In this document: positions 12,715-33,560 of the stretch, piece after piece | How the letters are laid out: every line of letters starts with the position of its first letter | How positions within the stretch are numbered: the stretch's first letter is position 1 | Source: Clostridiales bacterium | GTDB taxonomy: Bacteria; Bacillota; Clostridia; Oscillospirales; Oscillospiraceae | Length of the DNA stretch: 34,595 nucleotides | Direction: 5' to 3' | NCBI GenBank assembly: GCA_022775085.1 | Contig: JALFJQ010000053.1 | Coordinates: 1-34,595, forward strand | Position numbers and translations under genes: made by a program | The notes under the pieces: model-generated | The model's input: only the letters and a program-made list of their open reading frames with translations | The model's database searches: none | What the model was told of the DNA's origin: nothing

Positions 12715-12754
12715 ATAAAGCGTTTCAACAGGAACTGACGGAAGAACCGAAGTT

Positions 12755-13291: not shown

Positions 13292-16200
13292 ATGCGAACA
13301 AATGGAAAACGCCTGCTGTCGCTGATGCTGGCAATGCTGATGATTATCAGCATTCTGCCTGTATCCGCTTTCGCAGCAGGGGAAACCGAGATTGGCAGTC
13401 AGGAAGAATTGGCTGCAATGGAAAGCGGCGGCAGCTATATTCTGACCCAGGATATTACATTGGAAAACTGGACCGCCATGGATTTACCGAAAGGCACCAC
13501 TTTCAATGGTAACGGTCACACCATTACTTTGACAGGGGCACCGCTGTTCGCCAACATGGAGGGCACGGTCATCAATCTGATCCTAAAAGGCAGTGTTGCG
13601 CAAACGGCAAACAAAAATACCGGCGCTCTGAGCCAAACCTGTTACGGTACGATCCGCAATTGCATCAGTGATGTAGCTGTGACCTACAGTGGCACCAGCA
13701 AATGGGTCTACGCCGGTCAGATCATCGGCTCCTACGAGTCCGGCAACAATGTCAGCAACTGTCTGATTTTGGGCACTGTTGACCCCGGAGTGATTACAAC
13801 GAATTATGGTGCGGCAGGTGCGTCCTTCTCCACCCTGAACATCAGCAACTGTGTGGCTGTCGGCTATGATAAGATCGCACAGACGGACTACGGCAACATC
13901 GTCTCCGGCACAAACTGCACCCTGGTTGCGGCAGAAGACTATAACGCTGCGGATTATCTGGATTTCTTTAACACCTACCGCGGGGATGATCTGGCGTGGG
14001 AGCTGGCCGATGGCGCTCTGACGCTGAAGGCAGAGGCTGTCTCCGAAACAGCAACGGAAGAGCAGATCGCTTCATTGAACGCGGCGATTGCCGAGGCTGA
14101 AGCTGTGGACAAGACAAAGCTCTATACCGCGAGCAGTTTGACCAGCTACAACAGTGCGCTGTCTGCTGCAAAGAGCAAGGCAGCGGAAACCGAGCCTACT
14201 GCATCCTCTGTAATATCGGCCACCACCGCTTTAAAAAATGCTGTTGCCGGACTGACAGAACGGAATACTGCCGCCGTGGAACTGCCGGACAGCGGTGTGG
14301 TTGCCGTAACCCAGGATAATTTTCAAGCCCAGTTGAAAGCACCGACGGCCGGTGTTGTTTACCAACTCACGGAAGATATTACGCTGAGCTCAAGTTTTTG
14401 GATGGGATCGTTTAACACCATGAATGCCGTATTGGACGGCAATGGTTACACCCTTACACTGAACGGCGTTTCTCCCTTGTGGGGTACCATCGGTGAAAAC
14501 GGAATCGTTCAGAATCTGGGTATAAAAGGTTCTGTGGCAGATGGCTATGAGCCTATTGGCAATCTGGCAAAACAATGTTCCGGTCTGATCGTAAACTGCT
14601 GGAGTGAGGCGGATACAACCAATTCCTCCAGCACTGTTACCGGTGGATTTGCAGGAAAACTGCTTTCCGGCGGCGCTGTTGTCAACTGCTGGAATACGGG
14701 CAGCATTACAACTAGCGGCAGCAGCCAGATAGGCGCGATTGTCGGCTCTGCGGAAGGAAACACCCTGATTCAGAATTGCTATTGGCAGGATGACACCCTG
14801 AACGCTGTGGGAGCTGGCAGCGGCATTGTAACGAACAGCAGCGTAAAGACGCAGAGCGAATTTGCTTCTGATGAATTTGTGGACCTTCTGAACAGCAACC
14901 GGGGCACATACGGAAAACAGTGGAATATGTCCAGCACCGGCTATCCCTGGTTTGGAGAAGCGCAGGAGTACATTCCTGAGACGCCCGAAGAGCCAGTGGA
15001 AATTACCTTCACCTCCAAAAAGGGTATTGTCACCACCTTTATGAGTGACGAGGGGCTGACCATTTCTCTGAATGATTTGGAGGCGTCAGATGCTTACTAT
15101 GCCGGTAAGCTGTCCATGGAAGGTGCTACCAGCTGGAGTGATGACGGGAACAACCTGATTTACAACGATAACGAGCTTTATCTGAGCAACAAGACGGGAA
15201 CCTATACGATCACCGTCTCTTATGGCGATGGTGAAAGCAGAAGGTTCAATGTCAATGTGGTGGAGCCGGCGGATGCCGTTGCCCTGCGGCTGGTTGTCGA
15301 CGGTCAGGCCATCACGGACGGTCTGCTTACGGTTCAGGGCAGTGAGCGAATTGTGTTCTCTGCCGAGGCACAGTATAGCGAGGGCGGCGAATGGGAGTCC
15401 GTTCCCACCACGCTGCTGAGCTTCACGACAACAGCGGGAACCGATGAAGCGTATGTCAACGGCTCTGTGTTCTACGCCAAAAAGCCCGGTTCGGTGACGG
15501 TTACCGCTTCCGGTCTGGGCCAGACCGTTAACGTGGCGATTACCTCGGAATATGTAGCCGTAACAGCCATTAAACCTGCGCCCAGCGGCACCTATACTGT
15601 CCACGAGCGCAACGCCAACAGCGATAGCTTGGGCAATTTCGTTGATCTGATGCTGGGCCAAGGTGTGGGAAATGTTAACATCACCCCGGGCAATGCCAGC
15701 TATCAGGGCTGGACGCTGACATCCAGTGATACCGATGTTGCCGAGTATGTGGATGCGTTCCTGAAAGCGGTTCTGCCGAAGAAGGCAGGTACAACCACGT
15801 TGACTGCAACTTCCGAAGATCCTAGTGTAGCGGTTAGCGGCACCAGCCAGATCACCATCCAGTATAAGAATCCTGTGACGGCTGTTACCTTCACCGGCAA
15901 AAACAATACGCTGACCATTCAGGAGGGCAAGACGCTTGAGCTGCCCCTGACCTTCACCGGCACCAGCGGGATGGAAGATTACCATGTGACCGAGCCCGGC
16001 ATGACCTGGAGCTTTGAAAGCAGCGACGGCGGCGCGGTCACCATCTACCGGGAGAGCCAAGGTGTGCTTGTGCGCACGGAACAAGAGTACTGTGTTGCCA
16101 ATGATGCGTACAAGATTACTGGCGACGCAGCTGGTACCGTCACCGTCACCGGTACCCCTGTGGATACCACCGGCGGCGCACAGAGTGTAAGTTTTACGGT

Positions 16201-17965
16201 CACTGTGGAAGATGGCGAGGAAACAGCTGTTGACGTGGATGCCCTGATTGCCACGGCAATGCCTGCGGCCCAGAGCTGGCTGCAAGCAAACGGCGCCCAA
16301 AGCTATTCCTTTGGCAACGAGTGGGAGGTATTCACGCTGACCCGCTCCGGTGTAAGCATTGACCAGGCGAAGATTGAGGCTTACCTGGCATCTGTTCAGG
16401 ATACTTATTCCGCAGAGACGGTCTCCGACAAGGCGAAGGTCCGAACCACCATCGCCCGTGTAGCGATCACCCTGGGTGCGCTTGGAAAAGATGCTTCCAA
16501 CTTCGGGGGAATCAATCTCATCGAAATGCTGTACAACGATCTGGAATCGAATCTGGATTCCAACGCCTACATCTGGGCGCTGCTGGCCATTGATTCCGGT
16601 AATTACGAAATTCCGGAAGGCGCAGTCTGGACAAGAGACGCCCTGATCAACAAGATTCTGACATTCGCAGCGAGCAGCGGCGGCTTTGGCTTGAGCAACA
16701 ATACGGAAGTCAGCGTGGATATGACCGGTATGGCGTTGCAGTCTCTGGCCCCCTATTACGGCAGCAACACCAATGTACAGACCGCTGTGAACAACAGTCT
16801 GACTTATCTACAGAACGGTATGACCCGTAATGCTGAATTCGGCAGTGCGGAATCCACCGCACAGGTATTGGTAGCGCTGACCGCATTGAGCAGGAACCCG
16901 CTGGCAGAGGAAAACGGGTTTGTCAAGAGTGTTGCCCGTAATATCATTACCGGCATCTGCACATACCGCAACAGCTCCACCGGAGCGTTCCAGTACAGTG
17001 GTAAGGATAATAAAATGGCAACCATTCAATCCCTGTATGCGCTGGAATCCTATGTCCGCTACAGAGATGGGGGAAATGCCCTGTATGACCTGACCGATGC
17101 GGTAGTCAAAGTTCCTGCCGTGGAACCCGCAGACCCCGTTCAGATTTCTGTAACCATTTCCAATAAGGGCACCCTGGTCATGGCGCAGAACACCGTTACC
17201 GTTACCGACCGGAACGAGGACGGAAAGCTGGATGTGGATGAGGCACTGTATGCAGCCCACGAGGCGGGCTTCACCGGCGGCGCCGGCGCAGGCTATGGCT
17301 CGGCAGTAGGCAACTATGGTCTGGGCGTTACCAAGCTGTGGGGCGTTGAAACCACTGCTGTTGGTTATTGGCTGAACGATGCCTCCTGCTGGAGCCTGGA
17401 GGATGAAGTAAACGCCGGCGATTATCTGGTCGCCTGGGTTTACCAGTCGGCAAGCTGTGCGGATTCTTTTGCCAAGTGGGACAGCACCAGTGCGTCCGCC
17501 ACAACCGGCACGGCTCTGACAGTATCTTTGCAGAAGGCAGGTTATGACAAAGACTATAATACTGTATTCGCTGCTATGTCCGGCGCAACGATCAAGGCAT
17601 ACGGTTCGGATTTGACGCAGAAGGATGTCTGCACTGTTAGAGACAATGGCGACGGCAGCTATGCTGTGACCTTCACCACTGCCGGAGAATACTATCTGGT
17701 TGCAACCGGCAATGCGGAGACGATTCTGGTACCCACGGTTTGCAAGGTCAGCGTTGAGCAGGGCGAGGAAACTACGATCCAGGGCGATGTAAATGGCGAT
17801 GGAAAAGTACGCCTGGACGATGCTATGTGGGTGTACAGAGTTTCGGCCGGTCTCGCAACTGCTACAGATGCGGAGCGGGCGAAGATGGATATGAACGGCG
17901 ATGGCTATGTACGTTTAAACGATGCCATGGCTATTTACAAAATCAGCGCTGGTTTGTCTAACTAG
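13292..17965 (+). CDS. Giant secreted alpha/alpha-toroid protein with C-terminal dockerin (putative corrinoid capture protein)
   Basis: 1,557 residues from ATG 13292, seven bases after AAAGGAG; an ATG at 13286 is too close. A signal peptide ends near A-F-A-A. Residues ~40-240 and ~350-550 are GLUG/beta-helix-like repeats (N-C-x-x-x-G). Residues ~250-330 are a FIVAR-like helical module, and ~560-960 Ig/BIG2-like modules. About 980-1,265 is an alpha/alpha toroid of the prenyltransferase/transcobalamin type (M-A-L-Q-S-L-A-P-Y-Y, Q-V-L-V-A-L-T-A-L), the fold of intrinsic factor's alpha domain. About 1,270-1,490 are beta modules, the first possibly a divergent DUF4430. The end (~1,498-1,557) is a type I dockerin with two D-x-N-G-D-G calcium loops. 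There is no membrane anchor, so it should dock onto a cohesin. It is the first gene after the riboswitch-like leader. Ligand assignment is inferred. Confidence 0.85.
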   Translation: MRTNGKRLLSLMLAMLMIISILPVSAFAAGETEIGSQEELAAMESGGSYILTQDITLENWTAMDLPKGTTFNGNGHTITLTGAPLFANMEGTVINLILKGSVAQTANKNTGALSQTCYGTIRNCISDVAVTYSGTSKWVYAGQIIGSYESGNNVSNCLILGTVDPGVITTNYGAAGASFSTLNISNCVAVGYDKIAQTDYGNIVSGTNCTLVAAEDYNAADYLDFFNTYRGDDLAWELADGALTLKAEAVSETATEEQIASLNAAIAEAEAVDKTKLYTASSLTSYNSALSAAKSKAAETEPTASSVISATTALKNAVAGLTERNTAAVELPDSGVVAVTQDNFQAQLKAPTAGVVYQLTEDITLSSSFWMGSFNTMNAVLDGNGYTLTLNGVSPLWGTIGENGIVQNLGIKGSVADGYEPIGNLAKQCSGLIVNCWSEADTTNSSSTVTGGFAGKLLSGGAVVNCWNTGSITTSGSSQIGAIVGSAEGNTLIQNCYWQDDTLNAVGAGSGIVTNSSVKTQSEFASDEFVDLLNSNRGTYGKQWNMSSTGYPWFGEAQEYIPETPEEPVEITFTSKKGIVTTFMSDEGLTISLNDLEASDAYYAGKLSMEGATSWSDDGNNLIYNDNELYLSNKTGTYTITVSYGDGESRRFNVNVVEPADAVALRLVVDGQAITDGLLTVQGSERIVFSAEAQYSEGGEWESVPTTLLSFTTTAGTDEAYVNGSVFYAKKPGSVTVTASGLGQTVNVAITSEYVAVTAIKPAPSGTYTVHERNANSDSLGNFVDLMLGQGVGNVNITPGNASYQGWTLTSSDTDVAEYVDAFLKAVLPKKAGTTTLTATSEDPSVAVSGTSQITIQYKNPVTAVTFTGKNNTLTIQEGKTLELPLTFTGTSGMEDYHVTEPGMTWSFESSDGGAVTIYRESQGVLVRTEQEYCVANDAYKITGDAAGTVTVTGTPVDTTGGAQSVSFTVTVEDGEETAVDVDALIATAMPAAQSWLQANGAQSYSFGNEWEVFTLTRSGVSIDQAKIEAYLASVQDTYSAETVSDKAKVRTTIARVAITLGALGKDASNFGGINLIEMLYNDLESNLDSNAYIWALLAIDSGNYEIPEGAVWTRDALINKILTFAASSGGFGLSNNTEVSVDMTGMALQSLAPYYGSNTNVQTAVNNSLTYLQNGMTRNAEFGSAESTAQVLVALTALSRNPLAEENGFVKSVARNIITGICTYRNSSTGAFQYSGKDNKMATIQSLYALESYVRYRDGGNALYDLTDAVVKVPAVEPADPVQISVTISNKGTLVMAQNTVTVTDRNEDGKLDVDEALYAAHEAGFTGGAGAGYGSAVGNYGLGVTKLWGVETTAVGYWLNDASCWSLEDEVNAGDYLVAWVYQSASCADSFAKWDSTSASATTGTALTVSLQKAGYDKDYNTVFAAMSGATIKAYGSDLTQKDVCTVRDNGDGSYAVTFTTAGEYYLVATGNAETILVPTVCKVSVEQGEETTIQGDVNGDGKVRLDDAMWVYRVSAGLATATDAERAKMDMNGDGYVRLNDAMAIYKISAGLSN

Positions 17966-18024
17966 ATACGACTGTATTGTTCACTGCCGGGTAGTGAATA
18001 TGCCCGGAGAAAGGAAAAGGCTTT

Positions 18025-18705
18025 ATGTGGAAAACCGCCAGAATACTTTCCCTACTGATGGCGGCTGCTCTGACGATAACGCAAACACCTGTCATCGCCG
18101 CTGCGGAAGAGGAGCAGCCGATACATGAATGTACGGCTGTTACAATGACAGCAGTGGATGAGCAGTCTCATGCGATAATCTGTGAGGATTGCGGCGCATC
18201 TGTGACGGAAGCGCACAGCTTTGGCGATTGGAATACGCAGGACGAACAGTGCCATGTCCGCATTTGTACCTGCGGAGCCAGCGTGACGGAACCGCATACC
18301 TGGGACGACGGCGTGTTGGATGAAGCAGCCGGTGTCAGATTTTACACCTGCACTGTTTGCTCCGCCGGCTATACAGAAATAGCGGAGTCGTCTGAGGATG
18401 AAATACCCGAAACTCCCACGGATGAGGATAAAGGCTCTCCCACGGATAAGGGTGCGGAAGCATCGGCAGATAAGGAAACTTCCCAAAGCCCGGAATCCCT
18501 TCTGATTGGCGATGTGGATGGGGACGGTCAGGTCACAGCCAGTGATGTAATGATTGTCTGCGATATTTCCCGGGGAAATCTTTCATCTGCTACAGAGCTT
18601 CAGCGTAGAGCCGCAGACGTCAATCAGGATGGCAGGGTTAATTTAGCGGATGTAGTGTCCCTCTACAAGACCCTGATTAACGGAAATGAAAGGAACACAG
18701 CGTAA
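18025..18705 (+). CDS. Secreted dockerin protein with CG-rich zinc-ribbon-like repeats
   Basis: 226 residues. A signal peptide (L-L-M-A-A-A-L-T-I-T-Q-T-P-V-I-A-A-A) is followed by three repeats of a C-x-x-C-G/C-x-C-G...H-x-W pattern (residues ~50-115: I-C-E-D-C-G-A-S-V-T-E-A-H, I-C-T-C-G-A-S-V-T-E-P-H, T-C-T-V-C). Next is a Pro/Glu/Asp/Ser-rich linker (~118-160) and a dockerin with G-D-V-D-G-D-G-Q and A-D-V-N-Q-D-G-R loops. The Cys/His repeats could bind metal or stabilise a small fold. It lies 59 bases after the giant toroid gene and 17 before the scaffold gene, so it is a likely passenger of the same assembly. Its cargo activity is unknown. Confidence 0.8.
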   Translation: MWKTARILSLLMAAALTITQTPVIAAAEEEQPIHECTAVTMTAVDEQSHAIICEDCGASVTEAHSFGDWNTQDEQCHVRICTCGASVTEPHTWDDGVLDEAAGVRFYTCTVCSAGYTEIAESSEDEIPETPTDEDKGSPTDKGAEASADKETSQSPESLLIGDVDGDGQVTASDVMIVCDISRGNLSSATELQRRAADVNQDGRVNLADVVSLYKTLINGNERNTA

Positions 18706-18722
18706 GAAAGGAATGTAAAGCG

Positions 18723-21038
18723 ATGAAAAAAATCGTCAGTTTGTTACTGGCATTGGTTTTGATCTTTAATCTGGGGATCACAGCCTTTGCTGATGAAACC
18801 TATACGATATCCCTGCGTGCAGATGGTGAGACGACAGTCGATGCAGGAGACTATGTTTATGTTTACGTTGGCGGAAGTCAGACTTTGATGTCGACTGGTT
18901 TACAGGCAATTATTGAATATGACGAGGATTGTTTGGAATTTGACCCAGATAATTCCGAACCTGGTTTCACCAGCGATGCTCTTACCGCAGCAAAACTAAC
19001 TGAGAAAGAAAATGATCTCGTTTCGGTTACCTTCGCGTCGTTTACAGCAGCAAAGGAAGTGAAAGCAGGAAACTGGTATAAGCTGGCGTTCAAGACCCTT
19101 AAGGCCGGGAGTACAGTGGTTTCTATTTCGGATGGCTATGTATATGATAGCGAATATAATGATCTGACTCCCACTACGACCGATACGGTCACCTTTACCA
19201 TCACCGAACCGTCTTCCAACGTTGCGGTTACCGGTGTCACGCTGAATAAGACGGAACTGCCTCTGAATGTTGGTGCCACCGAAACGCTGACGGCCACTGT
19301 GGCTCCTGAGAATGCCACCAACAAGGCTGTCACCTGGACTACTGACAACACTGAGGTCGCCACCGTGGCGGATGGCGTTGTAACCGCCGTTGCCGAAGGC
19401 ACGGCAACCATTACCGCCACCACCACTGACGGCAGCTTCACAGCAAACTGCACAGTTACGGTTACTGCGGCTGCTACAGCCGATGGCTACACGGTTTCCA
19501 TGGAGGTTCCCTCCGTCACAGCGGCTAAGGGTGGTGCAGCATCCGTAAATGTGATGGTCAGCGGTCATTCCGATGAAAACATCACCGGATACAACGACTA
19601 TGATGTGTATGTCACCTATGACAGCGCCAATCTGACCTTTAACAAGGATGCTTCCTCCGCCGCGGATACCGGTGCAACCATCGATGAGACCGAGACAGGC
19701 ACGATCCGCATTACGGGTCACGGTGATAAGAAGGAATTCAGCACGGCTGTAGCAACCCTGAACTTTACAGCCAATGCTTCCGGCGCGCACAATGTGACCA
19801 TCACCTCTGCCAAGGTCGATAACAGCGGCAGCGCCATCAGCAACGATGCTCCCGACGCAACAGTCGCTACAGCAACCACCGTGATCAAGGTTCCCTATTC
19901 TGTAACCCTGCCCACTGGTAAGGGTTTCACCAGCGACCAGACCTCTGTCCTGCCCGGCGAGAGTTTCACCTTCAAGGCGCCTGCCGATGCGGCCTATTAT
20001 AATATCACCGTCACCGTCGGCGGTGCAGAGGTCACGCCCACCATCAGCGGCAATACCTACACCATTACCAACGTCAACAGCGATGTCGTGGTGAGCGCTG
20101 TGGGTAAGATCTACAATGTTACAGTGAACAACCCCGCATTGTTCGACGGCGATCCTACCGCCCAATACGGTACAAGTTACCTGTTCTCTGTGACTGCTTC
20201 TGCAGGACATGAGATTACGGGTGTCACCGTTGTCATCAACGGTCAAACAATTAGTGTGACAGCATCCATGGGCAACTGGTATATGATCCCCGGCAAGTAC
20301 ATCACCGGTGACGTTACGATCACCATTACCGAAAAAGCCACAGGCAGCACAGAAACTGAAACCACCATCACGTTTACCGGCGTTGAGGCTGCAGAGGTCG
20401 ATGGTGGTCTGACGCAAACCGCGACAGTAGGCCAGCCCTTCACCTTCCGCCTGAATAAGGAAGATGGCTACACCTACGTCGTCAAGGTCGGTGAGACGGT
20501 GATCGAACCCAATGAAGATGGCACCTACACCATCCCCGGCAGCATGGTCACCACTGGCGGCGTCACGGTTACCATCGAAAAGACCGTAACTCCTGCCGGT
20601 AACCTGCAGGTTGCTGTTGCAAGTTACATCCAGTTGGATGGTAAGGTCATGTGGCTGGTCACTGCCACCGATGACGATAAGGTGCTGGCCTACGGTGACG
20701 AAGGCACAATGTTCTGGTCTGATTCCTACGATGCTTACTGCTGGCTGGTAATCTCCACAGAGAGCGAGGATACTGTTAAGGCCGCTGCTGAGGCTGTAAT
20801 CACCGAAGCCGCAGAAGGTGCTGTTGCAACCGCAGTTGCTTATGACAAGGATGTCAACCAGACCACCGTTGTGGATATCAATGATGCCCAGCTGGCCTAC
20901 GATATGTATCAGGCAAAGATGTATGAGGACTTCACGAATGCTTCTATGGATAAATTCCTGGAGGCTGACGTGAACGCAGACAAGACCGTGAATACCGAAG
21001 ACGCTGCCGCCATCGTTGCAGTGGTTCTTGGTAAGTAA
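18723..21038 (+). CDS. Secreted scaffoldin-like protein: two cohesins, BIG2, beta modules, C-terminal dockerin-like domain
   Basis: 771 residues from ATG 18723, 17 bases after the preceding stop, with AAAGGA upstream and a clear signal peptide ending A-F-A. Residues ~25-155 are a cohesin-like beta sandwich (I-I-E-Y-D-E-D-C-L-E-F, W-Y-K-L-A-F-K-T-L). About 160-250 is a BIG2 domain (V-T-L-N-K-T-E-L-P-L-N-V-G). About 258-390 is a second cohesin-like domain (V-Y-V-T-Y-D-S-A-N-L-T-F). About 395-630 are short beta modules, and ~635-700 an unassigned segment. About 710-771 is dockerin-like, with A-D-V-N-A-D-K-T-V-N as the better loop. Two cohesins could carry the two dockerin proteins encoded just upstream, and its own dockerin could attach to the membrane-anchored cohesin encoded next. 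Assembly specificity is inferred. Confidence 0.8.
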   Translation: MKKIVSLLLALVLIFNLGITAFADETYTISLRADGETTVDAGDYVYVYVGGSQTLMSTGLQAIIEYDEDCLEFDPDNSEPGFTSDALTAAKLTEKENDLVSVTFASFTAAKEVKAGNWYKLAFKTLKAGSTVVSISDGYVYDSEYNDLTPTTTDTVTFTITEPSSNVAVTGVTLNKTELPLNVGATETLTATVAPENATNKAVTWTTDNTEVATVADGVVTAVAEGTATITATTTDGSFTANCTVTVTAAATADGYTVSMEVPSVTAAKGGAASVNVMVSGHSDENITGYNDYDVYVTYDSANLTFNKDASSAADTGATIDETETGTIRITGHGDKKEFSTAVATLNFTANASGAHNVTITSAKVDNSGSAISNDAPDATVATATTVIKVPYSVTLPTGKGFTSDQTSVLPGESFTFKAPADAAYYNITVTVGGAEVTPTISGNTYTITNVNSDVVVSAVGKIYNVTVNNPALFDGDPTAQYGTSYLFSVTASAGHEITGVTVVINGQTISVTASMGNWYMIPGKYITGDVTITITEKATGSTETETTITFTGVEAAEVDGGLTQTATVGQPFTFRLNKEDGYTYVVKVGETVIEPNEDGTYTIPGSMVTTGGVTVTIEKTVTPAGNLQVAVASYIQLDGKVMWLVTATDDDKVLAYGDEGTMFWSDSYDAYCWLVISTESEDTVKAAAEAVITEAAEGAVATAVAYDKDVNQTTVVDINDAQLAYDMYQAKMYEDFTNASMDKFLEADVNADKTVNTEDAAAIVAVVLGK

Positions 21039-21083
21039 AGCGCATATCATGAGCCTTCAGAGATTCTGAAGGAAACCTACGCA

Positions 21084-21108
21084 CCTCCCCCGCTGAAAGC
21101 GGGGGAGG
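21084..21108 (+). other. GC-rich intergenic hairpin 1
   Basis: CCTCCCCCGC (21084-21093) pairs perfectly with GCGGGGGAGG (21099-21108) around TGAAA. There is no T tract. It sits in the 161-base gap between scaffold and anchor genes, and may stabilise the upstream mRNA or attenuate downstream expression. Confidence 0.6.
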
Positions 21109-21199
21109 TAAGCGGCATCTTTCGGGGCTTTACAGGTGCGGCCCCAAATTCGAGGCTTTGGCTGTAAATATCCGAAAAAACCATTTAGGAGGAATCCAT

Positions 21200-22225: not shown

Positions 22226-22231
22226 AGAATA

Positions 22232-25300: not shown

Positions 25301-26786
25301 TTACTTCACACTGCTGGGTGATACTGCTCATGGCGACAACGGGCAGGAGCATACTCTGACAGGTGGCAACCTGACCACCTGGATTTCAAGGACAGCTTAC
25401 ACACTGGAGTCTCCTGCTACTGTGCTGGATGTGTTTACGAAGGCTGTCAGCGGGAAATACAGTTATGTCAACAAAGGTAACTACATTTCTTCTGTTAATG
25501 GTCTGGCTGAATTTACAAATGGCAAGAATTCCGGCTGGATGTATACCCTGAATGGAAGGCACCCGAATCTTGGCGTTGCGGAACAGAAACTGTCAAACGG
25601 TGACAGTGTGGTATTCCACTACACGGATAACTATACCAAAGAACGCGGCAGTGGAACAACGGGAAATCAAACCATGGGTAAAACAACAAATGGATTCCTG
25701 ACGGCGTTGGCAGAAGATCAAAGCTATGCGAATGTGTACCAGACTACCGGCGATTATCTGGAAGCACTGGGAACACCTGCAGTTGGCACAATTGGCGGAG
25801 AGTGGATGGTCATCGGTCTGGCCCGCTCTGGCCGTAAGGTTCCGGAGGGATACTATGATAGCGTGGTCAAATATGTCACGGAAAATATTGATGCCAATGA
25901 ACGCCTCCATTCCAACAAGTCTACAGATAACGCACGACTTATTCTGGCGCTGACTGCAATCGAAAAAGATGTGACCGATGTGGCAGGGCATAACCTGCTG
26001 TTGGGCTTGAATGATATGCATTACCTCCAGAAGCAGGGTATCAACGGCCCGATTTGGACGCTAATTGCGCTGGACTGCAGCAACTATCCTGTCCCCACTG
26101 GCGGAGATGTCAGCCGCGAGGCCCTGATCCAGGTTATTCTGGATGCACAGTTGGGAGACGGCGGCTGGGCATTGTCCGGTGAGAATGCGGATCCCGACAT
26201 GACCGGTATGGCGCTGCAGGCGCTGGCTCCTTACTATGACCGCAATACGTCTGTTCAGGCTGCGGTTGACCATGCGGTTACCCTGCTGTCCGAAATACAA
26301 GACAGTGACGGCTGCTATTCCGGTGTCGACGGCGCCAGCTGCGAATCCCTTGCACAGGTTGTTGTAGCATTGACTGCGCTGGATATCGACCCCGATACGG
26401 ATACTCGCTTTATCAAAAATGGCGTTTCTGTTTTGGATGCATTGCTGCGGTATGCCGTCAGTGACGGTGGCTTTAGACACGTCCTGACGGGCCAGCGGGA
26501 CGGCATGGCTACGGAGCAGGGCTACTACGCGTTGACTGCCTACAATCGGTTCCTGTCTGACAAGACCAGTCTGTATGACATGACCGATGTGATCAACAGG
26601 GGCGGTGATCCTGTTGTGATTCCGGAAGAAACTGCCGTACACACAACTACTGAGCCTGTTGAGACGGTGCCTGCTAAGAGCGGCGGTTTCCATTGGCTGG
26701 CGATTGTGCTGGTTTTGGTTATAGTTTCCGGCGCAGGTGTGCTGACAGTTACTGTCATCATTCCAAAGTTCAAGAAAAAGGATTGA
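22356..26786 (+). CDS. Membrane-anchored protein with two DUF4430 + alpha/alpha-toroid modules on a helical-repeat stalk (putative corrinoid receptor)
   Basis: 1,476 residues from ATG 22356, with GGGAGG upstream. Signal peptide ends A-L-A. Residues ~40-110 BIG2. About 122-240 DUF4430 (F-S-N-G-P-R-S-G-W-K-Y-L-L-N-G, D-A-I-V-L-H-Y-T-D-D-Y). About 245-535 five ~57-residue helical repeats with core A-Y-x-x-L-x-x-x-Q-K-x-L-V-x-N. About 535-822 toroid 1 (G-I-N-G-P-I-W-A-L-I-A-L, M-A-L-Q-A-L-A-P-Y-Y). About 825-915 a CBM_X2-like beta domain, then a sixth helical repeat. About 978-1,098 a second DUF4430, and ~1,112-1,412 toroid 2, closely similar to toroid 1. About 1,447-1,470 a membrane helix then basic K-K-K-D. 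Intrinsic factor and transcobalamin combine the same two folds to clamp cobalamin between domains, so two binding heads per molecule are inferred. Confidence 0.88.
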   Translation: MKRRLTAVLLMLAMLTGLFPMQALAEDNTATSAQSIFLSQSQVQMQVGQQITLTAKVSPESAAATAVWVSQDESIATVDNGVITAVAPGNTTVSLEVGSLKALCSVTVVSKLRNSSQDDMITVFFSILGDGKHGNNGETHTLADGNLTVWLKQSAYTVSAQATVKDVFLAAVEGKEYSYEIRDGVYLATVNELSEFSNGPRSGWKYLLNGSYPNESIAAQQVRQGDAIVLHYTDDYTKDDNKKIGTDAIEPVIQQISSLEEVTIANETAILAARKAYNALSTGQKLAVGNYILLTEAEVTLTEALIDQIPAEITLDSEDGIAHALSAYNQLSDDQKELVKNQEKLTTAKEKLDELKAPVERVIEKIKELPEEIALKDEEAITAVRDAYDLLPEEQKELVTNYTVLTNAEDALDRLKAAAVDDFIDAIPPETKQDFQQAIINARTAYDRLTEKQKALVENYDALTAAEKQLNALKAAAVFELIAAIPEEISLDHEQIIAQARTAYDSLTDVQKNLVTNSNKLVTAERKLEILNLPATEKIYQQTGDYLATKDTPGVGSVNGEWRVIGLERSGRKVTDGYYKNVVEYVLAHINEKEWLDAAKSTENSRVILALTAMGYDVTNVAGHNLLAGLNEMSYIQTQGINGPIWALIALNSHDYEPTGNVTREKLISSILAAQLRDGGWALSGNASEPDVTAMALQALAPYYRTRSDVEIAVESALNYLSEAQSPDGGYGIGGDATCESAAQVVVTLTALGFDPDTDSRFVKNGVSVLDAMCTYVVDGSGFTHISGGTIDDMATEQGYYALTAYFRMKAGKTSLYDMSDVTIAPNHYKIIAGGDGKWNTDVQTYTIESDGVFAEFTGIKVDGTLIDSSNYTAKAGSTYVTFEDSYLKTLSLGRHSITLVFESCEVTTSLTVTKSDAELVRDVEALIDAIGTVTKSSKAKIDKARNAYNALTAKQQKLVTNYNKLTTAEKAYADLADKITVYFTLLGDTAHGDNGQEHTLTGGNLTTWISRTAYTLESPATVLDVFTKAVSGKYSYVNKGNYISSVNGLAEFTNGKNSGWMYTLNGRHPNLGVAEQKLSNGDSVVFHYTDNYTKERGSGTTGNQTMGKTTNGFLTALAEDQSYANVYQTTGDYLEALGTPAVGTIGGEWMVIGLARSGRKVPEGYYDSVVKYVTENIDANERLHSNKSTDNARLILALTAIEKDVTDVAGHNLLLGLNDMHYLQKQGINGPIWTLIALDCSNYPVPTGGDVSREALIQVILDAQLGDGGWALSGENADPDMTGMALQALAPYYDRNTSVQAAVDHAVTLLSEIQDSDGCYSGVDGASCESLAQVVVALTALDIDPDTDTRFIKNGVSVLDALLRYAVSDGGFRHVLTGQRDGMATEQGYYALTAYNRFLSDKTSLYDMTDVINRGGDPVVIPEETAVHTTTEPVETVPAKSGGFHWLAIVLVLVIVSGAGVLTVTVIIPKFKKKD

Positions 26787-26799
26787 TTCAATCCGGCTG

Positions 26800-26822
26800 G
26801 GGGCAGGCATCATGCCTGCCCC
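26800..26822 (+). other. GC-rich intergenic hairpin 3
   Basis: GGGGCAGGC (26800-26808) pairs with GCCTGCCCC (26814-26822) around ATCAT; the central bases can also pair. There is no T tract. It is placed just before the Shine-Dalgarno of the next gene, as in the two preceding gaps. Confidence 0.6.
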
Positions 26823-26839
26823 TGGAAAGGAGATAACAC

Positions 26840-28072: not shown

Positions 28073-28127
28073 TCTACGCACAACCGGACAATCCTCGGCT
28101 TTTTCCTAAAAAAACGGAGGCTTTAAT

Positions 28128-28712
28128 ATGAAGAAAAAGAAATTGGCAAATGTCATTATGGTGCTGATTATCCTGGTGATTGCTGTTGCCGGGATCGCTG
28201 TGGCTTTCAGCCTGAGAAACGGTCAGGATACAGGACTGGGCAGCCAGTACCATATTACCAAGATTCCGGACAATGCGCTCATCACCCAGGGCGAGGACAA
28301 TGTCTGCACTATCACCATTGTCTGCGACACCATTCTGGATAATCTGGACAACTTGGAGGAAGAAAAAGCGCCCTATGTTCCGAAGGACGCGGTGATCCTG
28401 CCAAAGACGCAGGTTTCCTTTACGGAGGGAGATACGGTCTTTGAAGTTCTGCAAAAAGTCTGCGCGGCGGCAGAACTTCAGATCGAGTACAGCTGGACAC
28501 CCATGTACAACAGCTATTATATTGAGGGTATCAACCATCTGTATGAGTTCGACTGTGGAAACGAGTCCGGCTGGATGTACAAGGTCAACGAATGGTTCCC
28601 CAACTATGGCTGTTCCGCCTACACTCTGAAAAACGGGGACGACATTGTGTGGTGCTATACCTGCAACGGCCTGGGTGCGGATGTGGGAGAAGTGTGGACG
28701 GGTGACGAATGA
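28128..28712 (+). CDS. Membrane-tethered single DUF4430 protein (putative corrinoid-binding partner of the ECF importer)
   Basis: 194 residues. An N-terminal K-K-K-K then a hydrophobic helix (residues ~8-27) looks like an uncleaved anchor, with the rest outside. A mature region of about 60 residues precedes a DUF4430 domain (~95-185) with F-E-V-L-Q-K-V-C, N-E-S-G-W-M-Y-K-V-N-E-W-F-P-N-Y-G-C and D-D-I-V-W-C-Y-T-C. It is the shortest DUF4430 form in the window and has four Cys, possibly two disulfides. The stop overlaps the start of the first ECF T gene (ATGA), implying coupled translation and close function. I infer that it receives ligand from the large surface proteins and presents it to the S component. 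Confidence 0.82.
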   Translation: MKKKKLANVIMVLIILVIAVAGIAVAFSLRNGQDTGLGSQYHITKIPDNALITQGEDNVCTITIVCDTILDNLDNLEEEKAPYVPKDAVILPKTQVSFTEGDTVFEVLQKVCAAAELQIEYSWTPMYNSYYIEGINHLYEFDCGNESGWMYKVNEWFPNYGCSAYTLKNGDDIVWCYTCNGLGADVGEVWTGDE

Positions 28713-29590
28713 GAGACGATGCCTTTTCCAAGCGGCACCCGGCAGTAAACTTCGTGTTTTTCGCGGGTGCGATGATCTGCACCGTGGTAATCCAGCACCC
28801 AGCCTATCTTCTGGCAGGTGTGCTGGGCGGCGGGATTTACTATCTGCTGCTTCATGGGAGAGCGGGTTTGAAGACCGTGCTGGGATGGCTGCCCGTCTTT
28901 CTGGTGCTGACAGGGATGAACCCCTTGTTCAACATCTATGGAAATACAGTCCTGTTCCGGTATTTCGGCAGACCCTATACGCTGGAAGCCCTGCTCTATG
29001 GTGGGGCTATTGCCGCAATTTTCGTAGAAATGCTGCTATGGTTTGGATGCTATAATGCGGTGCTGACCAGCGATAAGTTTACCGGCCTGTTCGGCAACTT
29101 GATTCCTGCCCTGTCCTTGCTGCTGGTGATGGTTCTGCGGATGATTCCCAACCTGATGCGCAAGGCATCCCAGATATCCGGTGCCAGAAGCACGATCGGC
29201 AAAGGCACGGCAGAGCAGGACACCACGAAAGAAAAGCTGACAGAGGGGATGACCGTACTGGGAACGCTGACCTCCTGGGCGCTGGAAGGCAGCGTGGTGA
29301 CTGCGGATTCCATGCGCAGCCGCGGCTATGGAAGCGGAAAACGCTCCAGCTTCATGATCTACACCATGACCGGACTGGACTGGGGACTTCTGGCAGCACA
29401 GGCCGTTCTCCTTGTGGGCATGATCGTGCTGGGCGACCGCACTGCTGCCTTCACACCGGTGCTAAATATTGCGCCCATCGGTGGGAGGAACCTACCGGGA
29501 TTTCTCTGCTACCTCTGCTATCTGCTGATCCCAATTGCATTACACATAAAGGAGGCCATCCAATGGCGCATTTCAATATCGAAAATCTGA
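28709..29590 (+). CDS. ecfT: ECF transporter T component (first copy)
   Basis: 293 residues with about six membrane helices. The N-terminus has H-P-A-V-N-F-V-F-F. The cytoplasmic coupling region carries L-R-M-I-P-N-L-M-R-K-A-S-Q-I and A-D-S-M-R-S-R-G-Y-G, the EcfT/CbiQ motif whose Arg-Gly contacts the ATPases. It starts in a 4-base overlap with the DUF4430 gene and its 3' end overlaps the ATPase gene by 28 bases, so all are one operon. A second, related T gene lies three genes downstream, which is unusual. Substrate (corrinoid) is inferred from the riboswitch and binding-protein context. Confidence 0.88.
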   Translation: MRDDAFSKRHPAVNFVFFAGAMICTVVIQHPAYLLAGVLGGGIYYLLLHGRAGLKTVLGWLPVFLVLTGMNPLFNIYGNTVLFRYFGRPYTLEALLYGGAIAAIFVEMLLWFGCYNAVLTSDKFTGLFGNLIPALSLLLVMVLRMIPNLMRKASQISGARSTIGKGTAEQDTTKEKLTEGMTVLGTLTSWALEGSVVTADSMRSRGYGSGKRSSFMIYTMTGLDWGLLAAQAVLLVGMIVLGDRTAAFTPVLNIAPIGGRNLPGFLCYLCYLLIPIALHIKEAIQWRISISKI

Positions 29591-31224
29591 CCTTTTCCTA
29601 TGCCGCCGCCAAGGGCAGGCATTCGCTGGAAAACGTCAGTCTCAAGGTGGAACAGGGAGAATTTCTTGTACTGTGCGGAAAGTCCGGCAGCGGCAAAAGT
29701 ACGCTCCTGCGGCATCTTAAAACAGTGCTGACGCCCAACGGAAAGCGCACAGGGGAGATCCTTTTCCGGGGTGTTCCTCTCAGCAAAGTAAGCGACCGGG
29801 AGCAGGCGGAAAAGATCGGATTTGTCATGCAGAATCCCGATGACCAGATCGTTACCGATAAGGTCTGGCACGAGCTGGCCTTCGGCCTGGAAAGTTTGGG
29901 CTGCGACCAGAAAACCATGCGCGCCCGTGTGGCGGAAATGGCATGCTATTTTGGCATCCAGGACTGGTTTCACCGGGATGTATGCAATCTCTCCGGCGGA
30001 CAGAAGCAGCTATTGAATCTGGCCGCCATTATGGCGATGCAGCCGGAGGTGCTGATTCTGGACGAGCCGACCAGTCAGCTTGACCCAATCGCTGCTTCTG
30101 ATTTTCTGAATACTGTGCGGAAGATCAATCGGGAGCTGGGCACCACAGTTATCATTACGGAGCATCGTCTGGAGGATATTTTTCCCTATGCGGACAGGGC
30201 TGTCGTTATGGATGGCGGAAAGGTCATAGCGGACGATGCCCCTCGGAATGTAGGCAAACTCCTGTATGAACAGCATCACCCCATGTTTTCGGCTATGCCC
30301 ACGCCTGTCCGGGTTTTCTACGGCGCTGAGGGGGTCGGGGAATGTCCATTGACTGTCCGGGATGGCAGAAGCTGGCTGAGTAAAGCGTTTCCCCAGACAC
30401 CCCAATATCCGGCTATCCCAGCTCCCGAGCTTTCGGAGGAAACAGCACCCAGCGCCCTGTCTCTCAAGGAACTCTGGTTCCGCTATGAAAAGGACAGCCC
30501 GGATATCTTAAGAGGTGTCAGTGCGGAAGTGCCAAAAGGAAGCCTGTATGCCATTCTGGGTGGCAACGGCGCGGGGAAATCCACCACGCTGAAAGCCATC
30601 TGCGGCATTTGCAAGCCCTATCGGGGAAAGGTAACGCTGTTCGGAAAACAAATCGATAAATATAAAAATCGACAGCTGTTTTCTCACTGCCTTGCTATGC
30701 TGCCCCAGGACCCCAAGAGCCTGTTCGTCAAGAAAACAGTCCGGGAAGATCTGGAAGAAATGACGAAAGACAAAGCCCTGATCGAGGAGACTGCCGCCAC
30801 CTGCCAGATCACGTCTCTGCTGGACAGCCACCCCTACGACCTGTCCGGCGGCGAGCAGCAGCGGGCGGCGCTGGCCAAGGTTCTGCTGACGCAGCCAAAG
30901 CTGCTGCTTCTGGATGAACCCACCAAAGGCATTGACAGCTTCTTCAAGGAAACCTTTGCCGAAATCCTGGCAAATCTGAAGAAGCAGGGAATTACCATCG
31001 TCATGGTTTCCCATGATGTGGAGTTCTGCGCCCGGTATGCCGACCTGGTGGCTATGTTCTTCGACGGGCAGATTTTGACCACCGATACGCCCCGCCGTTT
31101 CTTCGGAAGCAATAGCTTCTATACAACCGCCGCTCACCGCATGAGCCGTCATGTGTTCGATATGGCAGTCACGGCGGAGGATGTGATCCGCCTATATCAG
31201 AAGAACAAGGAGGCTGCAAAATGA
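29563..31224 (+). CDS. ECF transporter fused double ATPase (A-A')
   Basis: 553 residues from ATG 29563 with AAAGGAGG upstream. Two complete ABC ATPase domains sit in one chain. The first has Walker A G-K-S-G-S-G-K-S-T (39-47), signature L-S-G-G-Q-K-Q and Walker B L-I-L-D-E-P-T-S-Q-L-D-P. The second, after a linker near 250-300, has G-G-N-G-A-G-K-S-T, L-S-G-G-E-Q-Q-R and L-L-L-D-E-P-T-K-G-I-D. This YkoD-like fusion replaces separate EcfA1 and EcfA2 subunits and powers an importer dedicated to this operon. Both halves look catalytically intact. It overlaps the S gene by ATGA. Confidence 0.92.
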   Translation: MAHFNIENLTFSYAAAKGRHSLENVSLKVEQGEFLVLCGKSGSGKSTLLRHLKTVLTPNGKRTGEILFRGVPLSKVSDREQAEKIGFVMQNPDDQIVTDKVWHELAFGLESLGCDQKTMRARVAEMACYFGIQDWFHRDVCNLSGGQKQLLNLAAIMAMQPEVLILDEPTSQLDPIAASDFLNTVRKINRELGTTVIITEHRLEDIFPYADRAVVMDGGKVIADDAPRNVGKLLYEQHHPMFSAMPTPVRVFYGAEGVGECPLTVRDGRSWLSKAFPQTPQYPAIPAPELSEETAPSALSLKELWFRYEKDSPDILRGVSAEVPKGSLYAILGGNGAGKSTTLKAICGICKPYRGKVTLFGKQIDKYKNRQLFSHCLAMLPQDPKSLFVKKTVREDLEEMTKDKALIEETAATCQITSLLDSHPYDLSGGEQQRAALAKVLLTQPKLLLLDEPTKGIDSFFKETFAEILANLKKQGITIVMVSHDVEFCARYADLVAMFFDGQILTTDTPRRFFGSNSFYTTAAHRMSRHVFDMAVTAEDVIRLYQKNKEAAK

Positions 31225-31925
31225 AAAAGTCTCATATTGCTATGCTGCTGATGTTCCTGCTGGTAATTCCGGCAACGCTTTTCTTTGGCCTGCGGCTTAG
31301 CGGGCGGGCGTACTACTTTACCAGCACATTGGTCATTGTGGAACTCCTGATTCCTTTCCTGCTTGCGTTTGAGAACCGTAAGCCACAGGCGCGGGAGTTG
31401 GTGGTGATCGCGGTGCTTTCCGCTTTGGCGGTTGCCGCTCGGGTGGTCATCCCCATTCCCAATTTCAAGGTAATTTTTGCTGTCATTATGCTCTCCGGGA
31501 TTGCCTTTGGCCCGGAAGCGGGGTTTCTGGTGGGTGCTGTGTCCGCATTCGCCAGCAACTTCTTCTATGGGCAGGGTGCGTATACCCCGTGGCAGATGTT
31601 CGCCTATGGCGCCGGCGGAATGCTGGCAGGATTCCTGTTTGCAAAGGGCAGGCTTCCGAGGAAGCCTGCCGTCATGGGCGTGTTCGGCTTTTTGGCAACG
31701 CTGTTGTTTGTGGGGCCTCTGCTGGATACCTGCACGGTTTTTCTCACACTGCCGGTAATCCATTTTCAGACGGCGTGGCCCCTGTATGTTTCCGGCTTCC
31801 CCGTGAATCTCAGTCAGGGCACCTGCACGTTTTTAACCATGCTATTGTTCGGAAACCCTTTGCTGGAAAAACTGGATCGGGTAAAAGTACAGTACGGCAT
31901 GACGGAGGAGCAAGATGGGCTTTGA
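31221..31925 (+). CDS. ECF transporter substrate-binding S component (putative corrinoid, CbrT-like role)
   Basis: 234 residues, about six membrane helices, with A-R-E-L-V-V-I-A-V-L-S-A-L-A-V-A-A-R and the loop G-P-E-A-G-F-L-V-G-A-V-S-A-F-A-S-N. These are the usual S-component helix pattern and small-residue packing for T contact. Its position between the fused ATPase and the second T component, in an operon headed by a cobalamin-riboswitch-like leader and DUF4430 proteins, supports cobalamin or another corrinoid as ligand, as for CbrT in lactobacilli. I cannot confirm membership of the CbrT family from sequence memory alone. It overlaps the next gene by 11 bases. Confidence 0.82.
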   Translation: MKKSHIAMLLMFLLVIPATLFFGLRLSGRAYYFTSTLVIVELLIPFLLAFENRKPQARELVVIAVLSALAVAARVVIPIPNFKVIFAVIMLSGIAFGPEAGFLVGAVSAFASNFFYGQGAYTPWQMFAYGAGGMLAGFLFAKGRLPRKPAVMGVFGFLATLLFVGPLLDTCTVFLTLPVIHFQTAWPLYVSGFPVNLSQGTCTFLTMLLFGNPLLEKLDRVKVQYGMTEEQDGL

Positions 31926-32796
31926 AAGCTGCCACCCGGCGGTGAACTTCCTGTTCTTTGTCGCCGTTTTATACGGGAGCGTTAGCTTTCGGCATCCGGC
32001 GTTTTTGGCAATTTCCTGCCTCTGCGCCTGCGCCTACAGCGTGAAGCGAAACGGAAAAGCAGCTGCGGTATTCAATTTGTTCCTGCTGCCGCTGGTTTTC
32101 TGCTTTGCCCTGTACTACAGCAGCTACCATCACTTTGGAGTGACGGTACTAAAGCAGAATTTCATCGGCAACAATCTGACGGTGGAGAGCTTCGTTTACG
32201 GTCTGGTGATAGGGCTGCGGGGGGCGACCGTTTGCATGTGGCTGAGCTGCCTGAACCGTATCGTGTCCAGCGACAAAGTGGTGTATCTGTTCGGAAAGGT
32301 CAGCCCCCTGCTTTCGCTTTTCCTGACAATCCTGCTGCGCTTGGTTCCCAGAGTAAAGCAGGAGGCACAGCGAATTGATCTGGCGCAAAAAGGAATCGGA
32401 CGGGGCAGCAATCAGGGAAATCTCTGGCAGCGTTTTATAAACTGCCTGCGAATCTTTTCCATGCTGATTACTTGGATGATCTCCGCCCTTGCGCTGGAAG
32501 CCGATTCCATGCGCAGCCGGGGTAGTTTACTCCGGGGGCGGACGGCGTTTTCTATTTATCGCTTTGATAACCGGGACAGAGCCTTTGTAATCGCCTTGTT
32601 TTCCTGTATCACATTGACCGCCATGGGCGTGATTCTGGGGGCAACGGAAATGTTTTATAATCCCAGAATCATATGGAAACCGATGGACGCTAGAAACAGT
32701 GCAACCGCCATTGGCTATACTGTGCTGTGCCTGCTGCCCATGGGGCTGGAACTATGGACGGAGTATCGGTTCCGAAAGGCGAGGTGTGAATCTTGA
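31915..32796 (+). CDS. ecfT: ECF transporter T component (second copy)
   Basis: 293 residues, ATG at 31915 with GGAGGA before it. It begins H-P-A-V-N-F-L-F-F and contains R-H-P-A-F-L, like the first T component, and has the coupling motif A-D-S-M-R-S-R-G after L-R-L-V-P-R-V-K-Q. The same length, the same N-terminal motif and the same coupling motif mark it as a paralogue. Two T subunits with one S and one fused A-A' could form a hetero-T complex or two alternative transporters. It is separated from the CbiR-like gene by a TTGA overlap. Confidence 0.85.
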   Translation: MGFESCHPAVNFLFFVAVLYGSVSFRHPAFLAISCLCACAYSVKRNGKAAAVFNLFLLPLVFCFALYYSSYHHFGVTVLKQNFIGNNLTVESFVYGLVIGLRGATVCMWLSCLNRIVSSDKVVYLFGKVSPLLSLFLTILLRLVPRVKQEAQRIDLAQKGIGRGSNQGNLWQRFINCLRIFSMLITWMISALALEADSMRSRGSLLRGRTAFSIYRFDNRDRAFVIALFSCITLTAMGVILGATEMFYNPRIIWKPMDARNSATAIGYTVLCLLPMGLELWTEYRFRKARCES

Positions 32797-33560
32797 ACAA
32801 AGACAAAATCTACATATCCACGACAGCTTCCGACGCGGCGGAGGTTGCGCGCCGGTGGGGATTGGGAATCGAAATTTCGGAATATTGTACCGCGTGGAAC
32901 ATGGATGACAAATTTGCGGAAACGGATGTGCTGGTTCGCAAGAAATTGGAGGGCATTTCCCGCCGGGTACTGCACGCACCCTTTAATGAGCTGTTTCCCT
33001 GTGCGATTGACCGAAAGGCAAGATTATTGGCAGCAGAGCGTTACCGGCAGGCAATAGAGCTGGCCAAAAACTATGGCGCAGAAAAAGTCATTATTCATGG
33101 CGGATACAATGGATGGATGTATTATCCGGAATGGTATATTGAACAGAGCACCTTGTTTTGGAAGCAATTTCTGAAAGAAGATCCAGGCGTGGAAATTGTG
33201 CTGGAAAATGTATTGGAAGAAGATCCTGCATGGCTTCTGGATATCATCAGAAGCGTGGTGAATCCACACCTGCGATTGTGTCTGGATGTGGGTCATGTGA
33301 ATGCTTACTCAAAAGTGCCAGTCATGCAATGGCTGGATATTTGCGGTAGCGATATCGGTCATTTTCATATTCACAACAACGACGGAAGCTGGGATACCCA
33401 TAGCTCTTTGAATCAGGGTAACATCCCCATAAAGGAACTGCTTCAAAAGGCTGAGATCCTTTGCCCCGAAGCGACAGTGACACTGGAACTTATGGAGGCG
33501 GAAGAATCTGTGAATTGGCTTCGTGGAAGTAACCTGATGAGATGGGAAAGCACAGGATAA
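32793..33560 (+). CDS. cbiR: CbiR-like TIM-barrel cobamide-remodelling enzyme (AP endonuclease 2 family)
   Basis: 255 residues from a TTG overlapping the preceding stop, with GAGGTG seven bases upstream. The AP-endonuclase-2/xylose-isomerase-type TIM barrel shows its metal ligands as H61 (L-H-A-P-F), H102 (I-I-H-G-G-Y), E138 (L-E-N-V), D165 and H168 (L-D-V-G-H), H190/H192/H194 (H-F-H-I-H-N-N-D), H203 and E232 (L-E-L-M-E). Many family members are sugar isomerases or nucleases. However, CbiR of this superfamily, described in Akkermansia, hydrolyses cobamides to cobyric acid for remodelling. Placement as the last gene of a corrinoid uptake operon makes that role the best guess. No signal peptide, so cytoplasmic. 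Confidence 0.7.
   Translation: MNKDKIYISTTASDAAEVARRWGLGIEISEYCTAWNMDDKFAETDVLVRKKLEGISRRVLHAPFNELFPCAIDRKARLLAAERYRQAIELAKNYGAEKVIIHGGYNGWMYYPEWYIEQSTLFWKQFLKEDPGVEIVLENVLEEDPAWLLDIIRSVVNPHLRLCLDVGHVNAYSKVPVMQWLDICGSDIGHFHIHNNDGSWDTHSSLNQGNIPIKELLQKAEILCPEATVTLELMEAEESVNWLRGSNLMRWESTG

Follow-up and report, generated by a model that had tools for sequence, protein, structure and literature searches.

A cobalamin-riboswitch-led locus with predicted transcobalamin-like binders, cohesin-dockerin modules and an ECF importer in a Clostridiales bacterium

Introduction

BtuG is a surface B12 protein of Bacteroidetes, and cellulosomes are built from a primary scaffoldin that carries a dockerin of its own and an anchoring scaffoldin. 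BtuH is another Bacteroidetes surface B12 protein (PMC8941943). Nearer to the system considered here, Burroughs et al. 2007 (PMC1796856) recognised, in the available part of their paper, the SLBB/toroid architecture in Gram-positives together with CbiO/CbiQ-like genes in the same operons; they predicted B12 scavenging by surface SLBB/toroid proteins and suggested surface complexes made up of several extracellular SLBB proteins. Holders are reported usually to lack key B12 synthesis enzymes, and animal B12 carriers were proposed to originate from such bacteria (same source). Energy-coupling factor (ECF) transporters are a class of importers, one of which, ECF-CbrT (6FNP), is the B12 transporter of Lactobacillus delbrueckii (PMC5997447, in part). 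CbiR is a cobamide-remodelling enzyme, and 25% of cbiR homologues adjoin putative transport genes (PMC7733943, in part). Here we describe a locus at 13286-33560 of a 34,595-nucleotide stretch of DNA (the window; contig C10, JALFJQ010000053.1) from a Clostridiales bacterium (GCA_022775085.1; 2.72 Mb, 98.8% complete, 82 contigs). The locus probably encodes a surface complex for capturing corrinoids and delivering them to an ECF importer. Its make-up is well established, and from it we infer capture, joining and hand-over.

Predicted binders and importer

The locus comprises twelve co-directional genes, all on the + strand. Up to 28128 the genes are separated by gaps of 17-161 bases; beyond that point neighbouring genes overlap five times, by 4-28 bases. 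An original prediction, made from the sequence, had described eleven co-directional, partly overlapping genes here; the direction and overlaps stand, the number becomes twelve, and the description of the locus as a whole is confirmed with this and the further corrections given below.

The product of the first gene, P13286 (13286-17965), is a secreted protein of 1559 residues with a toroid (16223-17098), a DUF4430-like beta-grasp domain (17117-17482) and a C-terminal dockerin. In the AlphaFold model of toroid and beta-grasp (predicted local distance difference test score, pLDDT, 88.2), an alpha/alpha toroid is followed by a transcobalamin-type beta-grasp domain. Transcobalamin/haptocorrin structures fill Foldseek ranks 1-11, and 10 of 12 such rows cover both domains, so that the structure prediction suggested at the outset came out as a predicted transcobalamin-like pair. 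P22356 (22356-26786; 1476 residues) holds two DUF4430 domains (22842-23054 and 25419-25625), two toroids (23964-24818 and 25722-26588) and a C-terminal membrane helix (26703-26759). P28128 (28128-28712) combines an N-terminal membrane helix with a DUF4430 domain (28428-28661). These helices, and that of P21200 below, were called by hydropathy. Altogether the predicted binders contain the toroid and DUF4430 domains that were originally expected: three toroids, found by a local profile (Pfam Prenyltrans in P22356 alone), and three Pfam DUF4430 domains; the fourth domain of the latter kind, in P13286, is visible only in the model and a local profile. Between the two putative membrane-bound binders lies the gene for secreted P26840 (26840-28072), the wall hydrolase of the original prediction, with Peptidase_C39-like and Hydrolase_2 domains.

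Sequence proof of homology to transcobalamin was also sought, but no transcobalamin is among the PDB matches listed for profile A1, profile A4 or a segment of P22356. We observed an EF-hand-like loop, DRNEDGKLDVDEAL, within the DUF4430-like domain of P13286 (residues 1308-1322, about 17207-17251), where Pfam EF-hand_6 scores a sub-threshold 13.4 bits; the loop is similar in two related loci, L046 and L054 (alignment A4). A further DUF4430 match lies elsewhere in the genome, on contig C74.

Downstream of the binder genes follows, as originally predicted, an ECF importer; it has one S component (31221-31925), a double ATPase (29563-31224) and two T-like components (28709-29590 and 31915-32796). 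The S component and the ATPase score above Pfam cut-offs, and the T components are CbiQ-like at sub-threshold scores (23.7 and 15.5 bits, cut-off 25). The PDB sequence closest to the S component is 6fnp_A, CbrT of the B12 transporter (36.5 bits, E 3.9e-8), with the next matches at 24.5 and 21.3 bits (next E 1.9e-4). Its Pfam and NCBIfam names are those of riboflavin and folate S families. Two side observations concern the importer: the two EcfT-like proteins share the operon with a single S component and a single double ATPase, and ATPase and S component lie within one reading frame in the related loci L144, L147, L151, L152, L154 and L158.

These data bear on whether the toroid and DUF4430 proteins might bind another ligand, such as a terpenoid, a glycan or a haem-like tetrapyrrole, with cobalamin merely regulating the locus. 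The nearest solved toroids by sequence are terpene cyclases, and the family names of the S component fit such a reading as well. However, DxDD, the class II cyclase motif, occurs in none of the three toroids, and the toroid proteins have signal-peptide-like N-termini, which disfavours the terpene cyclase reading. The two-domain match to transcobalamin, the position of CbrT ahead of two other S components and the recurrent riboswitch linkage reported below likewise speak against another ligand, which we regard as highly improbable.

The last gene (32793-33560) encodes a TIM barrel of the AP_endonuc_2 family (76.1 bits). It is CbiR-like, as originally predicted, but full CbiR membership had to be rejected, with 47.5 bits against the NCBIfam model NF041277 (cut-off 105). 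Similar genes occur in stretches of 7 of 17 genomes of the genus (the 17 being taken from among 22 other genus genomes with a DUF4430 match above 50 bits; this sample is used throughout). Elsewhere in the host genome, contig C4 encodes CbiC and CobS and also bears a cobalamin riboswitch; the host likely makes corrinoids besides importing them. By eye, the open reading frame behind the riboswitch in L008 resembles CbiK and the one in L009 CbiM. Plain B12 auxotrophy therefore fails to explain the system and was rejected. A producer might instead keep self-made cobamides on its surface, whether to store them, to compete or to export them; that CbiC and CobS are encoded on a contig with another cobalamin riboswitch would suit this. 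Yet an ECF transporter, which belongs to a class of importers (PMC5997447, in part), is among the products of the operon, and a CbiR-like enzyme would suit incoming foreign cobamides; we give this reading very little credence and retain uptake as the probable function.

Riboswitch leader and its linkage to toroid genes

Where the original prediction had a cobalamin-riboswitch-like leader, there are two Rfam cobalamin riboswitches (RF00174) above the gathering score of 31.5 bits. The leader of the locus itself carries an aptamer at 12232-12443 (+ strand, 55.3 bits), and a divergent one lies at 11471-11682 (- strand, 52.3 bits), 5' of a LysR gene. The two face apart, each with a promoter-like sequence before it and a terminator hairpin after it. 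Upstream of the + aptamer is a sigma-70-like promoter, TTGACA-17-TATTAT (12075-12103, + strand), identified by an 11/12 consensus match only. Downstream, an intrinsic terminator hairpin of 13 pairs with a U-rich tail (12492-12524, + strand; fold of 12450-12535, z -4.05) is likely the expression platform of this aptamer. The terminator hairpin of the divergent riboswitch is at 11407-11433 (- strand).

Between the + aptamer and the structural genes lie a small DUF2292 open reading frame of 53 residues (12553-12714, + strand; PF10055, 26.7 bits, cut-off 22) and, 5' of the structural genes, a second terminator-like hairpin (12757-12800, + strand; fold of 12745-12815, z -5.15). These are followed, 100 bases 5' of P13286, by an aptamer-like stretch resembling the cobalamin riboswitch core (13014-13185, + strand; 44.2 bits with a local riboswitch model, R1). 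A third Rfam aptamer at this position was rejected, as Rfam gives no match there at E<=1. The structural genes thus sit behind a cobalamin-riboswitch leader, with 12232-12443 and 13014-13185 as candidate governing aptamers. By eye, another core-like motif, ATAAGGAAATGGGGTACCAAGCCCCAT, can be seen 5' of the + aptamer (12110-12225, + strand), perhaps in a decayed aptamer.

Is the linkage between riboswitch and toroid gene general? Toroid relatives were collected by contig scan, and we considered the loci of the best 80 of 182, whose contigs are often cut. Model R1 was built from 19 riboswitches, two from the window and 17 from other genomes. At E<=0.01 it gives 72 matches, spread over 57 of the 80 loci, and 69 of them are on the strand of the toroid gene; the linkage looked for in other Clostridia is therefore present beside most related toroid loci. 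Of the 40 loci that contributed no training sequence (L082-L121), 32 give a match, 29 of them at E<=0.001. About 1 would be expected in the 0.77 Mb scanned, given a density of 1.4 per Mb (156 riboswitch matches over about 109 Mb). Rfam finds a riboswitch in 7/7 loci picked among the R1 matches, which checks the model and is not a rate. No R1 match was found in 59 dockerin or cohesin stretches of relatives, a weak control with ~0.3 expected in 188 kb. In the genus sample 13 of 17 stretches have a match.

Cohesin and dockerin modules

Type I dockerins with two calcium loops are present in two proteins of the locus. That of P13286 (17783-17935) scores 26.9 bits with Pfam (cut-off 22.9) and has the loops DVNGDGKVRLDD and DMNGDGYVRLND. 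The second is at the C-terminus (18508-18675) of P18025 (18025-18705), a secreted protein of 226 residues, and scores 40.7 bits against the same cut-off; no other Pfam family is above cut-off in P18025. Ahead of this dockerin we noticed, by eye, repeated CxxC/H motifs (18025-18480).

P18723 (18723-21038), a secreted protein of 771 residues and a putative adaptor scaffoldin, has cohesin 1 (18825-19157), a Big_2 domain, cohesin 2 (19503-19823) and a C-terminal dockerin-like segment (20850-21035). Cohesin 1 is supported by fold, PDB sequence profile and a local hidden Markov model (HMM; 31 bits). Cohesin 2 scores 37 bits with the local HMM and aligns to a cohesin dyad, with a Pfam score of 21.8 bits, below the cut-off of 24.1. 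A cohesin fold is thus found in a putative partner of the dockerin proteins. The C-terminal segment is dockerin-like only, with the loops DVNQTTVVDIND and DVNADKTVNTED; a Pfam scan gave no dockerin match there at E<=0.1, and model pLDDT is mostly below 50. In P21200 (21200-22225) a cohesin-like domain (21317-21670) precedes Flg_new repeats and a membrane helix (21953-22009; residues 252-270), making the protein a putative anchor. Its open reading frame is listed from 21158, and the ATG at 21200 is preceded by AGGAGG. The cohesin of P21200 is the weaker one (Pfam 18.8 bits, again below 24.1), and precomputed Pfam cohesins occur in 6 of 120 P21200 homologues among the matches listed. Accordingly, of the original predictions the two clear dockerins are recovered, the weaker third one is dockerin-like only, the membrane anchor is retained as putative, and of the three cohesin-like domains the two in P18723 are borne out while that of P21200 is weaker.

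All Pfam dockerins of the genome (2/2) are within the locus, as is its one Pfam cohesin match (1/1; the 21.8-bit, sub-threshold one). Since the genome has just these two dockerins and neither is on a protein with a glycosidase domain by Pfam, an ordinary cellulosome, defined by dockerin-bearing glycoside hydrolases on a scaffoldin, was rejected. The word "cellulosome-like" used in the original prediction holds for the joints and not beyond them.

Occurrence in other genomes

The combination recurs elsewhere: dockerin and cohesin stand beside toroid/DUF4430 genes in six loci besides the window (L042/L142, L146-147, L144-145, L154, L158 and L117). The first of these is the orthologous locus of a genome of the same genus, G030, and contains both of the dockerins and both of the cohesins that this genome has; likewise the only dockerin and the only cohesin of G041 are in its matching locus. 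Dockerin and cohesin occur together in 5 of 17 stretches of the genus sample. The local dockerin HMM includes the window's two dockerins, and the dockerin and cohesin HMMs include seeds from some of the recurrence loci; Pfam was therefore used as a check. It confirms, above cut-offs, the dockerins of L154, L158, L144, L146 and L117 and the cohesins of L154, L158, L145 and L146.

L154 and L158 show a minimal layout of a secreted toroid protein with a dockerin, an anchored cohesin, a DUF4430 protein and ECF genes. The dockerins score 28.3 and 23.7 bits (Pfam cut-off 22.9). Each cohesin protein (~200 residues) has a membrane helix at its N-terminus and a single cohesin, which scores 28.9 bits in L154 and 26.8 bits in L158 (cut-off 24.1). 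The DUF4430 proteins have a lipobox-like N-terminus by eye, and the ECF genes come next. L158 has no riboswitch match, its toroid gene being near the contig end, and the stretch of L117 has neither an ECF gene nor a riboswitch match. The P21200 family is found in 3 of 99 genomes (own included), every time in a dockerin-bearing locus; the relative in L117 is 41% identical. As a separate observation, dockerin proteins at L144:4943-9487 and L117:14947-19449 have beta-propeller-like (PQQ_2) and cadherin-like matches, and it is possible that they are further cargo of such complexes.

Of 57 homologues of P13286, 13 are annotated with SLH anchors and 6, P13286 itself among them, with dockerins (the query contained the dockerin, which favours dockerin matches); none has both. 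The dockerin thus gives the impression of an exchangeable attachment module in this type of putative binder. In the genus at large about 104 Pfam dockerins are counted, summed over 61 genomes, of which at least 13 are in such loci (local HMM, stretches of the 17 genomes), so the genus also uses dockerins elsewhere.

Several observations weigh against a joined surface complex. By local HMMs, the 80 toroid loci mostly contain DUF4430 (76/80), an ECF-type ATPase (59/80; a single-sequence HMM that may also match other ABC ATPases) and an S component (49/80), whereas a dockerin is found in just 2/80 and a cohesin in 2/80; a CbiR-like gene is found in 3/80. Compared with the G030 ortholog, P21200, P22356, P26840 and P28128 are 95-99% identical and P13286 is 92% identical in its N-terminal part, as against just 74% for P18723 and 61% for P18025; the joint-bearing proteins therefore change faster than their neighbours. 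The second cohesin of P18723 is on less firm ground. Moreover, cohesin/dockerin proteins of syntrophic sulfate reducers and anaerobic methanotrophic archaea (ANME) are read as adhesins in the available part of PMC10553843.

Corrinoids might accordingly be captured for import by the membrane-anchored P22356 and P28128 alone. The dockerin and cohesin proteins would then serve in adhesion or as a wall scaffold, regulated by B12 and encoded in the same operon, and would hand over no corrinoid. Besides the scarcity of joints in toroid loci, this would fit the membrane helices that P22356 and P28128 have of their own, the dockerin as sole recognised family of P18025, and the beta-propeller-like or GLUG domains of some dockerin proteins in related loci. 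On the other hand, P13286 is a single chain that has a toroid, a beta-grasp domain and a dockerin together; the dockerin in the stretches of L154 and L158 belongs to the toroid protein, which has a single anchored cohesin next to it; and the mutual exclusion of SLH and dockerin fits a dockerin that attaches the binder to the surface. We consider a separate scaffold unlikely, and the joined complex remains our preferred reading.

Neighbouring features

On the - strand, the divergent cobalamin riboswitch and its terminator lead a LysR-type regulator gene (10451-11401). Farther along the same strand is a gene for a RACo-like corrinoid-protein reactivator (7667-9715; PF14574, 334 bits). Both genes are 97-98% identical in L042/L142, and this side may mark a B12-tuned corrinoid regulon. 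The leader is 97% identical in the ortholog, a degree of conservation at which the comparison is uninformative as a test of the leader. A type IV secretion coupling protein encoded at 4014-5336 (T4SS-DNA_transf, 117 bits) suggests a conjugative element adjoining the locus. A strong terminator-like hairpin of 14 pairs (33676-33709, + strand) lies 3' of the last gene.

Discussion

We propose the following mechanism. At low intracellular cobalamin the riboswitch would let transcription through the terminator, as its family and hairpin suggest. P13286 would hold a corrinoid between toroid and beta-grasp in the manner of transcobalamin, its fold being predicted. The inner binders would be P22356, which combines two toroids and two DUF4430 domains with a membrane helix, and the membrane-bound P28128. 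The two cohesins of P18723 would receive the dockerins of P13286 and P18025, and the dockerin-like, divergent end of P18723 would in turn dock into the cohesin of membrane-anchored P21200, a pairing that would resemble a primary and an anchoring scaffoldin. We suggest this scheme because the numbers fit: two dockerin proteins for two cohesins, and one divergent dockerin for one anchored cohesin. The corrinoid could then pass to P28128 and the S component and be imported by the double ATPase and T components. The CbiR-like enzyme may remove the lower ligand, and CobS, encoded elsewhere, could rebuild a preferred cobamide.

On balance, though by no wide distance, we favour a "corrinosome": riboswitch-controlled, transcobalamin-like binders snapped onto a membrane-anchored scaffoldin and concentrating corrinoids at the importer, with a vitamin binder rather than a glycosidase as cargo. 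The gene combination recurs in several genomes, in its minimal form as one dockerin-tagged binder and one anchored cohesin. If true, Firmicutes gain an extracellular route of B12 capture that uses the carrier fold of animals, with a bearing on the 2007 proposal of a bacterial origin for animal B12 carriers; cohesin-dockerin joints would assemble a nutrient-capture machine other than the cellulosome; and L154 and L158 would offer a minimal two-part pair that is easily tested.

As to novelty, the original interpretation, in which a locus with a riboswitch leader and cohesin-dockerin modules serves to capture and import corrinoids, is supported by the fold model, the nearness to CbrT, the riboswitch linkage, the recurrence and the confinement of the genome's Pfam dockerins and Pfam cohesin match to the locus. 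Its statement that no such system had been described in Gram-positives does not stand as made: scavenging was predicted in 2007 (PMC1796856, in the part available), while the cohesin-dockerin layer and the joined CbiR-like gene are absent from the literature searched. That literature, which lies outside most subscription journals and all bioRxiv preprints and was in part available, contained no cohesin-dockerin corrinoid system; a full-text search for dockerin, vitamin B12 and riboswitch gave no match, 7 papers name dockerin, cohesin and cobalamin together but none, in the part available, deals with such a system, DUF4430 is named in 6 papers, and the word dockerin does not occur in PMC1796856. 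SLBB/toroid/ECF scavenging was thus already on record as a prediction, and the cohesin-dockerin assembly would be the new element.

Compared with known systems, the predicted binder shares with vertebrate transcobalamin, haptocorrin and intrinsic factor an alpha/alpha toroid followed by a small beta domain, as judged from the model, but P13286, at 1559 residues, has further domains and a dockerin, and the PDB sequence searches listed no match to these carriers. Cellulosome scaffoldins resemble the locus in their folds (cohesin, dockerin) and in layout, as the locus has proteins with dockerins, one with cohesins that ends in a dockerin-like segment, and an anchored cohesin. It differs in that neither of the genome's two Pfam dockerins is on a glycosidase and the predicted cargo is a corrinoid binder. 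Like the cohesin/dockerin proteins of ANME and their sulfate-reducing partners, its modules stand outside cellulosomes; the available part of PMC10553843 reads those proteins as adhesins and has cobalamin sections on synthesis and salvage genes, the two topics being kept apart. BtuG and BtuH, which capture B12 at the surface for an importer, come from Gram-negatives. The last gene belongs to the same AP endonuclease 2 superfamily as CbiR (PMC7733943, in part), from which its sub-threshold score sets it apart. ECF-CbrT (PMC5997447, in part) is an ECF importer too and its S component is the nearest in the PDB, whereas here two T-like components and a double ATPase are part of a dedicated operon with extracellular binders. 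Closest of all are the SLBB (DUF4430)/toroid systems of PMC1796856, which, as far as the available part of that paper goes, have the same two domains, surface location and ECF-type genes; to these the present locus adds dockerins and cohesins as putative joints and a CbiR-like gene, in a genome that has kept corrin-synthesis genes.

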